Below, piece after piece: positions 30,694 through 37,556 of a stretch of DNA of 64,000 bases. The position numbers and the translations under genes are program-made. The DNA is from Allorhodopirellula heiligendammensis (lineage in GTDB: Bacteria; Planctomycetota; Planctomycetia; Pirellulales; Pirellulaceae), in the NCBI RefSeq assembly GCF_007860105.1, contig NZ_SJPU01000004.1:186001-250000 (forward strand). The letters are read 5' to 3'. The notes under the pieces were generated by a model. It saw only the letters and a list, made by a program, of their open reading frames with translations. It had not been told where the DNA came from and ran no database searches. Numbering within the stretch: position 1 is the stretch's first letter; each line of letters begins with the position of its first letter.

Positions 30694-31458
30694 TCAGGCA
30701 TTCTGAATGCGAAAAGCGAGCTGCTGCAGCTCGCTGGCGAGGTCCACGTTGATGACGGCTACTGCCGAGGAAACTCTCAGCGTGGTGGGAGCGAAGTTCA
30801 GGATTCCTTGGATGCCCAACGCCACGACTTGGGCGGCCACCTCTTTCGCTTGTTCGCTTGGTACGGCGAGGATTGCCAGTTCGGGTTTCAGTTCCCGCAG
30901 TACCGGTTCGAGTTGGTCCATGGGCAAAATCTTTGTATTCCCAACGACGCCACCAATCTTGGTCGGGTCGGTATCGAATGCAGCAGCCAGCGAAAATCCG
31001 AGTCGCTCGAACCCGCGATAGCGGAGTAGAGCATTGCCGAGGAACCCGACCCCGATCATCACGGCCTTCCAGTGCACGCCGCTGCCCAAAACGACCCCGA
31101 TATGATCAGCAAGTGATGCGACATCGTACCCCACACCACGCCGGCCCACCGACCCAATCGAACTGAGGTCCCGTCGGACGACGGCAGCCGAGACGTTTAC
31201 CATCGCCGCTAAGTCGCGACTGTTCGTCGACGTTTGCCCAGCATCGAGCAAGCGATGTAGTTCGCGAAAGTAAAGGCTCAGCCGCCCGACGGCCGGAGTG
31301 GATAAATCCGTACGAACGATTTCATTGGAACCAGCTCCATCCGGGTGCCCAGCTGAGATTGGTGGATTCATGGAAGGTGGCATATCGAGGATGGGGTCAA
31401 AAAACGGATAATCGGTAAAACCGGAACGGACGGCACGTTTGCACAGCCTAGACCCCAT
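30694..31458 (-). CDS. rex: Redox-sensing transcriptional repressor Rex
   Basis: A 254-residue repressor that senses the NADH/NAD ratio and controls fermentation and respiration genes. The N-terminal winged helix is seen in YFRELHRLLDAGQTSTNSRD and DLSSIGSVGRRGVGYDV; the Rossmann NAD(H) site is MIGVGFLGNALLRYRGF, where the usual third glycine of GxGxxG is replaced by Phe-Leu-Gly spacing typical of Rex. FAPTTLRV near the C-terminus is a Rex signature. The first ~45 residues are not conserved; ATGs at 31383 or 31371 may be the true start. No TTGTGA-N6-TCACAA Rex box was seen upstream. Confidence 0.88.
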   Translation of the reverse strand: MGSRLCKRAVRSGFTDYPFFDPILDMPPSMNPPISAGHPDGAGSNEIVRTDLSTPAVGRLSLYFRELHRLLDAGQTSTNSRDLAAMVNVSAAVVRRDLSSIGSVGRRGVGYDVASLADHIGVVLGSGVHWKAVMIGVGFLGNALLRYRGFERLGFSLAAAFDTDPTKIGGVVGNTKILPMDQLEPVLRELKPELAILAVPSEQAKEVAAQVVALGIQGILNFAPTTLRVSSAVAVINVDLASELQQLAFRIQNA

Positions 31459-31814: not shown

Positions 31815-33623
31815 ATGAAAAGGTTGTGGTTACTACCCGCACTCGCGTTGATCGCGGTTGTGTCGGGTGCCAATGCTGCTCATGCTGCTTATTGTAGCAC
31901 GATCAGTTACCAAGGCTGCAGCAGCTGTGGCGGCGGCTCTGTCGTTGCCGATGGTGGTGTTGTCTCCGACGACTCGGTCGTCGTTGATGGTTCCGTTGCT
32001 GTTGCCGCTCCTGGTGTGGTCACCAGCGAAGGTGCTGGAAATGGATCGTACACCGTGATGCGGACAGTTCGCGAGACTGTGATGGAACAAGTCCAAGAGA
32101 CTCGCCATCGTACACGGAACGAAACGTACTATGTTGACCAAGTTGTCAATCGCACTCGGATGGTGCCGGAAACGGTCCAAAAAGAAGTGCAGTACACCGT
32201 CATGGTGCCAACGTACGAAACTCGCGAAAAGACGATCAACTACACAGTCAACAAACCTGTGTACGAAACTCGCTCACGAGTGATCAACTACACCGTTAAG
32301 AAACCTGTGTATGAAACTCGTCAAAAGACGATCAACTACACTGTTAGCAAGCCCGTTTACGAGCAACACGAGCGTGTGATCAACTACACGGTCCAAAAGC
32401 CCGTCTACGAGACTCGCACCAAGACGATCAACTACACCGTCAACAAGCCAGTGTACGAGACTCGTCAAAAGACGATCAACTACACCGTGATGAAACCCGT
32501 TTACGAAACTCGTACACGGAACATCAACTACACGGTCTACAACACCGTGCGTGAAGACAAAGTTCGCACAGAGAACTACACCGTTACGGTTCCAGTCCAG
32601 TACACCAAGACCATTCAGGTCAAGGGTGGACATTGGGACACAGTTACCGAAACGGTTCCTGGCCCAATGATTCGTCGTACCGTGCGTGAGCCCGGCACAT
32701 GCCACTACGACCCAACCACCTGCCGTACGGTATACTGCCCCGGCAAGTGCCGCGTCGAGTGTGTTCAAGGCTGCCCCAAGACAATCTGCAAGAAGGTCTG
32801 GGTTCCTACCTGTGAAGAACGAGAAATCACCTGCACGAAGTACGTGAAAGAATGCCGCACCCGCGAAATTCCTTACACCGTATGCCGTCGTGTTCCTGAG
32901 TGCCGTACCAAGGTTTGCGAATACAAAGTTTGCAAGATGGTCCCAGAATGCCGCACAAAGACCTGCAACTATACCGTTTGCAAGATGGTCCCAGAGTGCC
33001 GCACCAAGACCTGCGAATACAAAGTTTGCAAGATGGTTTGCGAAAACCGTCAAAAGGTTTGCAAGTACACAACTTGCAAGATGGTTCAAGAATGCCGCAC
33101 CAAGACCTGCAACTACACCGTGTGCAAGATGGTTTGCGAAAACCGTCAAAAGACTTGCAACTACACTGTGTGCAAGATGGTCCCAGAATGCCGCACCAAG
33201 GTTTGCACGTACAAAGTTTGCAAGATGGTTCCCGAATGCCGCACCAAGACCGTGTGCCACACGGTTTGCCGCAAAGAATGCTACCAAGAAACGATCCGCG
33301 TTGCTAAGTGCCGCAAAGTTTGCGAGCCTTACACCGTGACCAAGTGCGTTCCTCGCGTCGTCTGCCGTCAAGTTCCCGTCACCGTTTGCTGCCCAGAACC
33401 TTGCTGCAATGCAGCTAGCTCCTGCGACAACGGTTGCGACACTTGCGGATCGGCTTCGGATTGCGGTTGTGCAAACGACTGCTGCGAACCAGCCCCTTGC
33501 TGTGCTCCTCGTCAATCGTGCCTGAAGGGCCTGTTGAACAAACTGTTCCACAACCACAACTGCGGATGCGATTGCCAAGTTGCTGAGCCTTGCTGCGACG
33601 CAGCACCGGCTTGCGGATGCTAA
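31815..33623 (+). CDS. YTV-repeat, Cys-rich envelope protein
   Basis: A 602-residue exported protein of the planctomycete YTV family, whose members have been found as cell-wall proteins (family knowledge). The signal peptide ends near AHA-AYC (about residue 24). After a Gly/Val/Ser segment come two repeat arrays. Residues 130-257 hold eight 16-residue units of the type KPVYETRxKTINYTV. Residues 357-484 hold eight units of the type CKMVPECRTKTCNYTV. A Cys-rich linker (about 295-356) joins them, and the C-terminal ~110 residues are also very rich in Cys. Abundant cysteines suggest a disulfide-linked layer. It is preceded by a strong ribosome-binding site and followed by a terminator, consistent with high expression. 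Confidence 0.9.
   Translation: MKRLWLLPALALIAVVSGANAAHAAYCSTISYQGCSSCGGGSVVADGGVVSDDSVVVDGSVAVAAPGVVTSEGAGNGSYTVMRTVRETVMEQVQETRHRTRNETYYVDQVVNRTRMVPETVQKEVQYTVMVPTYETREKTINYTVNKPVYETRSRVINYTVKKPVYETRQKTINYTVSKPVYEQHERVINYTVQKPVYETRTKTINYTVNKPVYETRQKTINYTVMKPVYETRTRNINYTVYNTVREDKVRTENYTVTVPVQYTKTIQVKGGHWDTVTETVPGPMIRRTVREPGTCHYDPTTCRTVYCPGKCRVECVQGCPKTICKKVWVPTCEEREITCTKYVKECRTREIPYTVCRRVPECRTKVCEYKVCKMVPECRTKTCNYTVCKMVPECRTKTCEYKVCKMVCENRQKVCKYTTCKMVQECRTKTCNYTVCKMVCENRQKTCNYTVCKMVPECRTKVCTYKVCKMVPECRTKTVCHTVCRKECYQETIRVAKCRKVCEPYTVTKCVPRVVCRQVPVTVCCPEPCCNAASSCDNGCDTCGSASDCGCANDCCEPAPCCAPRQSCLKGLLNKLFHNHNCGCDCQVAEPCCDAAPACGC
32202..32585 (+). repeat. Eight 48-bp tandem units, YTV N-terminal array
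   Basis: Eight in-frame copies of a 48-base unit encoding 16 residues ending in YTV. Cys is absent. The last copy (ending ENYTV) is the most diverged. Confidence 0.85.
32883..33266 (+). repeat. Eight 48-bp tandem units, YTV Cys-rich array
   Basis: Eight in-frame 48-base copies with the same 16-residue period as the upstream array. Cys occupies unit positions 1, 7 (or 5) and 12. Copies four and six share a CENRQK variant, suggesting duplication of a two-unit block. Confidence 0.85.
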
Positions 33624-37238: not shown

Positions 37239-37416
37239 CGTGATTTAATTTTCGTGGGCCGCTCCCCTACTGGATCGCTCGCTCGTGTTTCCCATGCGGT
37301 CGCCGTGGCACAGAACAACAGGTTCAAAACCTCACCCGATATTGGCATCGAGCGGCCCACTGGATGCATCTAAATGTCGAGCCGCCTGTTGAGTTAGTTG
37401 CTCTCGCTGCCCGAAT

Positions 37417-37476
37417 GCATCGCTACTAACTCGAGTGCATCGCTACTAACCCGAGTGCATCGCTACTAACCCGAGG
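37417..37476. repeat. Three-copy 20-bp tandem repeat
   Basis: GCATCGCTACTAACYCGAGT occurs three times end to end (37417, 37437, 37457), with a C/T difference at position 15 of copy one and a final G in copy three. It lies in a 318-base gap (37239-37556) without genes. Confidence 0.9.
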
Positions 37477-37518: not shown

Positions 37519-37554
37519 ATGAACAACGCAACTTGCATGAACAACGCAACTTGC
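37519..37554. repeat. Two-copy 18-bp tandem repeat
   Basis: ATGAACAACGCAACTTGC is repeated exactly (37519-37536, 37537-37554), ending two bases before the stop of the minus-strand isomerase gene. Confidence 0.9.
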
Positions 37555-37556
37555 AA

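Follow-up and report, generated by a model that had tools for sequence, protein, structure and literature searches.

The two repeat arrays of a planctomycete YTV protein appear to be the strands of one giant antiparallel beta-hairpin

A YTV-family gene with two arrays of one repeat unit

The window analysed here, the whole stretch of 64,000 nucleotides, carries on its forward strand an open reading frame of 602 residues whose product matches the Pfam YTV profile (PF07639) at 292.3 bits against a gathering score of 21. With 64 Cys in 602 residues the protein is Cys-rich, as are the YTV wall proteins of planctomycetes. The gene and its parts are as follows.

31815..33623, + strand: YTV-family protein, 602 aa, 64 Cys (PF07639, E 6.1e-89, 9 stretches)
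31815..31886, + strand: probable Sec signal peptide, residues 1-24 (sequence reading, hydrophobicity scan)
32046..32201, + strand: leader, residues 78-129, where the outgoing strand would begin (leader HMM match, homology to the C-side leader)
32202..32585, + strand: N array, residues 130-257, eight 16-residue units without Cys, predicted outgoing strand
32586..32882, + strand: linker, residues 258-356, predicted hairpin tip with the turn near 299-304 (AlphaFold2 fragment, tip covariation)
32883..33266, + strand: C array, residues 357-484, eight 16-residue units with three Cys each, predicted returning strand
33267..33389, + strand: trailer, residues 485-525, predicted end of the returning strand, facing the leader (trailer HMM, covariation with the leader)
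33390..33620, + strand: Cys-rich tail, residues 526-602, outside the predicted hairpin (sequence)

Two basic residues, a hydrophobic core and an Ala-rich end follow one another in residues 1-24, so read from the sequence the N-terminus resembles a signal peptide, and the protein may be exported. The neighbouring gene on the opposite strand (30694-31458) encodes a CoA-binding domain together with a DNA-binding N-terminal domain, a combination known from redox-sensing Rex repressors. Further along the window, a 20-bp tandem repeat of 3.3 copies lies between two open reading frames (37410-37475), with an 18-bp repeat nearby (37519-37555).

The first-pass annotation had described eight units of 16 residues in each array, and this was borne out: residues 130-257 and 357-484 map exactly to positions 32202-33266, and the autocorrelation at lag 16 is 0.52 in the N part and 0.48 in the C part, compared with 0.02-0.04 at lags 15 and 17. 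One extra degenerate unit precedes each array (residues 114-129 and 341-356), and units 1 and 8 of the N array are themselves degenerate. A common register of the two arrays also held, as N and C units are 45% identical in register and 0-12% identical at the 15 other registers, a level of in-register identity that none of 200000 column permutations reached; different periods, or a failure of the arrays to align when tested statistically, were not seen. Some details of the unit have to be corrected. Cys at position 12 is found in seven of the eight C units, unit 8 having Cys at 13 instead; Cys at position 7 (or 5) stands as six units with Cys at 7 and two, units 4 and 6, with Cys at 5; and YTV at positions 14-16 is not uniform, the C units reading YTV, YKV, YTT or HTV there.

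Pairing of the two arrays

In the AlphaFold2 model of the full protein, residues 78-281 and 322-525 form two continuous strands of exactly 204 residues each, the first starting at residue 78 in the leader. This model was poor (mean pLDDT 51.2, pTM 0.20), with pLDDT below 50 nearly throughout the Cys-rich tail (residues 526-602), and we took its strand pair only as a hint at pairing between the N array and the Cys array; such pairing was then tested with sequence data independent of the model. A fragment covering residues 196-407 (26 sequences) was modelled better, at a mean pLDDT of 88.3, and has two continuous strands of 85 residues (197-281 and 322-406) followed toward the tip by the short strand pairs 285-291/312-318 and 295-299/304-308; the residue numbers of all strand pairs sum to 603. 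Within the linker this places Trp274 opposite Trp329, and 99 of 113 unique proteins have Trp in the two places. Under the rule i+j=603, position p of an N unit lies opposite position q of a C unit where p+q is 6 or 22, making Lys2 and Val4, Glu6 and Val16, and Arg8 and Tyr14 reciprocal partners across the strands, so that the unit is complementary to itself. The two arrays appear to form, as its opposite strands, a single giant antiparallel beta-hairpin that spans approximately residues 78-525, an architecture supported by sequence and prediction rather than by direct observation. The YTV family itself was already known; the relation of its two arrays as one hairpin is new. Readings of the protein as a solenoid or as separate domains find no support in the predicted strands or in the covariation ladder described below.

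The profile of family alignment A1 found no PDB chain at E values up to 1. When the fragment model was compared with the PDB by Foldseek, TM-scores were at most 0.20 among the 50 matches listed, and there is therefore no PDB fold match; the best of these matches were proteins with long beta-hairpins (the lysenin pore, the collar and tail of phage phi29, and others). Hairpins of the lysenin and phi29 type are portions of larger folds, whereas the hairpin of the window protein would be nearly the whole protein. The Pfam YTV model likewise differs from what we describe, being a repeat of 43 positions, whereas the window protein has 16-residue units in two arms.

We measured the covariation between the arms as corrected mutual information, giving offsets relative to the pairing predicted. 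Near the linker (111 sequences, effective number 62) it is 0.094 at offset 0, 0.067 at -2 and 0.076 at +2 and does not exceed 0.015 at any other offset from -20 to 20, and 27 of the 30 top pairs lie within 2 of the prediction, where 10.6% are expected. At the open end, where the paired residues are hundreds of positions apart in the chain, the values at 0 and +/-2 are 0.072, 0.061 and 0.050 (83 sequences, effective number 49), others are at most 0.016, and 20 of the 30 top pairs lie within 2. At the tip (86 sequences) the highest values belong to the expected sum of 55 (0.055) and to 53 (0.054), the next being 0.017. The signal is weaker in the middle of the arrays. For whole arms of 196 residues (36 sequences, effective number 10), the values are 0.028, 0.045 and 0.048 at offsets 0 and +/-2, displacement by one complete unit (+/-16) leaves no more than 0.005, and ghost signals stand at -14 (0.023) and -18 (0.024); in the middle and far thirds of these arms offset 0 (0.023 and 0.021) falls below the largest other offset (0.026 and 0.025), and +/-2 stays above background at 0.038-0.056. 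For arms of 164 residues (17 sequences), offsets 0 and -2 rise above the rest in each of the three zones, and +2 does not exceed background in the middle one. The ladder of covariation is thus well defined beside the linker and towards the open end, present at the tip and weaker in mid-array, and a signal at 0 and +/-2 with none at odd offsets is characteristic of beta pairing. Antiparallel ladders between N arms or between C arms were also looked for by covariation; nothing clear stood out, so these ladders show nothing of how hairpins pack.

A hairpin paired along its whole length would have arms of equal length. We gathered 165 loci (30, 35, several of which were the same genes, and 100), with a linker match in 164, and defined one arm as running from the start of the leader to Trp28 of the linker model and the other from Trp83 to the end of the trailer, using HMM anchors in place of earlier regex anchors. 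Exclusion of 34 of the 164 loci lacking an anchor, 5 open reading frames that were open and 2 with weak anchors left 123 proteins, 112 of them unique. The 34 unanchored loci include a large group (L196-L230, mostly family f23), for which the arm-length rule lies largely outside the count, L036, whose arms were unequal by 32 residues with the regex anchors, and L171, in which the frame appears to change near the end; L154, for which the leader anchor is probably incorrect, was kept among the unequal ones. The arms were equal within one residue in 97 of the 123 anchored proteins, duplicates included, and in 87 of the 112 unique ones. Those of the window protein measure 196 and 196 residues, and the lengths found among equal arms are 132, 148, 164, 170, 180, 184, 188, 194, 196, 198, 202, 212, 228, 280, 284, 308, 328, 332, 340 and 374. 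Related species share arm lengths, and we also drew one random member per linker cluster: on average 36.3 of 52 had equal arms (lowest 34), compared with 4.1 on average and at most 11 after shuffling. Looser linker clusters gave 11.3 of 17 (shuffled maximum 8) and 7.4 of 13 (shuffled maximum 5), and taking the commonest pair to represent each cluster, a favourable choice, gave 37 of 52 (shuffled maximum 13 of 100000). Every one of the 113 unique N arms has an even number of residues, as do 107 of 113 C arms, which fits a need to preserve the alternation of the strand.

Arms were unequal in 25 of the 112 unique proteins, two of them from one single-contig genome, and in the 26 unequal rows the difference ranges from -128 to +96 residues. 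Repeat collapse in draft assemblies may explain part of these cases, because equal arms were more frequent in genomes of one to three contigs, a set typed by hand from contig counts and titles (31 of 33, against 56 of 79 in the others; Fisher p=0.006). Unit numbers were compared among relatives, as the first-pass annotation had proposed: the C array lacks four units in Rhodopirellula sallentina and two in the BR-MGV assembly of R. baltica, both being many-contig assemblies. The C arm is correspondingly 64 residues shorter than the N arm in the former (L049) and 32 shorter in the latter (L050), by either deletion or assembly collapse.

Some relatives mix units of 14 and 16 residues, and in these the order of units in the N array, read outward from the linker, is the order in the C array. 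The proteins with equal arms show 14 distinct pattern pairs, in which 151 of 161 units agree in mirrored order and 87 in direct order, whereas shuffling gave a mean of 95.4 in mirrored order (sd 5.4, maximum 121 of 5000); this count omits the first C unit next to the linker. With that unit set by hand to 16 residues, the figures become 165 of 175 mirrored, 119 direct and 104.8 shuffled. The ten pairs having at least two short units in both arms agree at 121 of 127 units in mirrored order, at 63 in direct order and at a mean of 70 after shuffling. The order of units was re-examined after hand counts in L053 and L171 had matched; an initial trim without the linker-adjacent C unit had shown little agreement, and the trim was then set to the i+j=603 geometry. 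L177 disagrees (6 of 9 units, as far as its segmentation is reliable). Proteins with unequal arms, allowed one block gap, separate the two orders less well, with 152 of 156 mirrored, 137 direct and a shuffled mean of 111 (maximum 125), the hand-set unit included. In L171, from a single-contig genome (G050), each array carries by hand count about three copies of a 76-residue super-repeat that match in the order of 14- and 16-residue units.

The same strands could also pair between molecules, the N arm of one chain lying along the C arm of another in a swapped antiparallel dimer or an endless ribbon, and matched lengths, mirrored order and covariation do not separate such pairing from pairing within a chain. 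The linker, however, speaks for a turn: the modelled pairing runs through the tip to a tight turn at the same sum of 603, the covariation at the tip peaks at the sum expected of a hairpin and at 2 below it, and the spacing across the linker is 55 residues in 112 of 130 rows. We consider intermolecular pairing unlikely for these reasons.

Cysteines and the history of the arrays

If the arms pair as predicted, Cys residues of the two arrays do not meet. Among 81 unique proteins with equal arms, 703 Cys of the N arrays and 1472 of the C arrays form 0 facing pairs, where 84.2 are expected by composition, the zero reflecting a rule at the level of the unit that is repeated by periodicity and descent and not 84 independent events. 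In the window protein no Cys of the returning strand has Cys opposite to it; the residues there are Tyr, Thr, Lys, Arg and a few others. The 21 facing Cys pairs that do exist are confined to the final 45 residues at the open end, 18 of them at the first leader residue; the first leader and last trailer residues are thus both Cys and face each other in 18 of the 81 proteins, a possible clasp in some clades, with Ser at this place in the window protein. By parity, the side that bears the conserved Trp pair also bears 497 of the 703 N-array and 1074 of the 1472 C-array Cys. Because no array Cys faces another, the disulfides of the arrays probably join different hairpins.

These observations bear on the earlier proposal that one array had become a disulfide scaffold, which is doubtful for bonds within the molecule given the absence of facing array Cys. 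The three Cys of each C unit and the Cys-free N array of the window protein would suit two independent repeat domains, of which the second is an intramolecular scaffold; yet the arms match in length, unit order and residue covariation as strands of one hairpin and not as two independent scaffolds, no Cys in the arrays face each other, and disulfides between near neighbours on one extended strand would be strained. We regard independent domains as very improbable.

The common ancestry of the arrays, also proposed before, is supported by their in-register identity. The similarity extends beyond the arrays: hhalign shows the N-side leader to be homologous to the residues that precede the C array (probability 96%, E 1.2e-9), at a score of 43 where 60 column shuffles reached at most 14.9. 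Because leaders on both sides are homologous, the module that was duplicated was probably a larger, self-pairing one. An ancestral unit able to pair with its own copies would account for the conservation of identical positions in the two arrays. The split of the arrays is old, because residues common to both use the same codon at about the expected rate (51%, 49% expected). Block duplication inside the C array is supported as well, by the units with Cys at 5 and by excess codon sharing (0.74 versus 0.58 within the array). Of 17 relatives with readable arrays, 11 have the Cys-at-5 units exactly at places 4 and 6, and DNA identity is 85% between these sub-type copies and 90% between copies 2 and 5. 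By codon sharing, copying within the C array is younger than the split of the arrays.

Defining a Cys-carrying array as one with at least 0.4 Cys per 16 residues, we counted, among 111 arrays of each kind, 110 Cys-carrying C arrays and 65 Cys-carrying N arrays, the other 46 N arrays being Cys-poor. Parsimony changes the Cys state of the N array 9 times and tentatively places a Cys-poor N array at the root, in a tree that is rooted on paralogs with 14-residue units and has some weakly supported deep branches.

That equal arms arose by a mutational link between the arrays or by shared ancestry alone, with no pairing, is hardly credible, for although the arrays are homologous and arm lengths are common to related species, copying between arrays predicts the direct order of units, which is not the order seen, and the covariation at offsets 0 and +/-2 is a mark of beta pairing.

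The YTV family and the planctomycete wall

A YTV-family protein is present in 196 of 198 genomes sampled from the class Planctomycetia, and the best named relative of the window protein, from Rhodopirellula solitaria, is 93% identical in the best segment. In a draw of 244 genomes across the phylum, 20 matches were listed, 18 in the class of the window (its own genome included) and two in other classes, both of these weak (E 4.7e-5 and 7.8e-4); 204 further rows had no match. A match on a Halobaculum plasmid is a repeat rich in Thr, Val and Glu without the YTV pattern, and one in Comamonadaceae lies mostly opposite a copper resistance gene; both were taken as chance.

The genome itself holds three more matches. 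One (L234, G000:C1:1829500-1834500) is a second two-arm YTV-like protein with a 628-residue frame, only 4 Cys and both arms near 164 residues by HMM matches; because this protein has two arms with so few Cys, the hairpin may not need Cys. The third YTV protein (L235, G000:C2:2265500-2271000) has a 691-residue frame, few Cys in its N arm and units of about 14 residues by reading, and the fourth match (L236, G000:C4:83500-88500) is a 451-residue frame with only a short YTV-like stretch.

The location of the family in the wall is taken from papers on relatives. Walls isolated by boiling in 10% SDS had YTV proteins as major constituents (PMC5287468), and wall preparations of R. baltica and Gemmataceae contained YTV proteins rich in Cys, the genes being reportedly confined to Planctomycetales (PMC8567305). 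In Planctopirus limnophila a YTV protein is among the essential genes restricted to planctomycetes, with a role in wall rigidity suggested from its cysteines (PMC10632474), and the planctomycete wall has been described as a protein sacculus with disulfide bonds (PMC2754498). In the accessible parts of the open-licence literature on YTV proteins we found no description of a fold, a hairpin or a two-arm architecture.

Pairing, register, matched arms, mirrored units and the absence of facing Cys are supported by comparison of sequences; export, disulfides between hairpins, a sheet or net, and assembly in the wall are inferred. The leader and N array would run out, the linker would turn, and the Cys array and trailer would return in register, giving a hairpin of about 224 residues per side. 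An extended strand rises 0.33 nm per residue, so such a hairpin would reach about 74 nm if fully extended. The array Cys, which face no Cys on the opposite strand in the proteins examined, are probably kept free for bonds with neighbouring hairpins and would so build the detergent-resistant protein wall of planctomycetes. We hold it highly probable that the window protein is an exported protein forming one giant two-stranded hairpin whose array Cys are probably free to cross-link neighbours into the wall. The Cys-rich outer membrane proteins of chlamydiae, within the wider PVC group, are disulfide-linked envelope proteins too.

On balance, and by a modest degree, we favour the view that the family represents an unrecognized wall architecture, in which single-hairpin proteins with arms from about 130 to at least 370 residues grow by matched units added to both arms, and their Cys, absent from facing positions, cross-link neighbours into a covalent fabric. 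With the register specified, predictions on the length of fibres, the partners in disulfides and the mode of assembly can be tested directly, and a hairpin of some 450 residues would, if true, lie at an extreme of protein folding.
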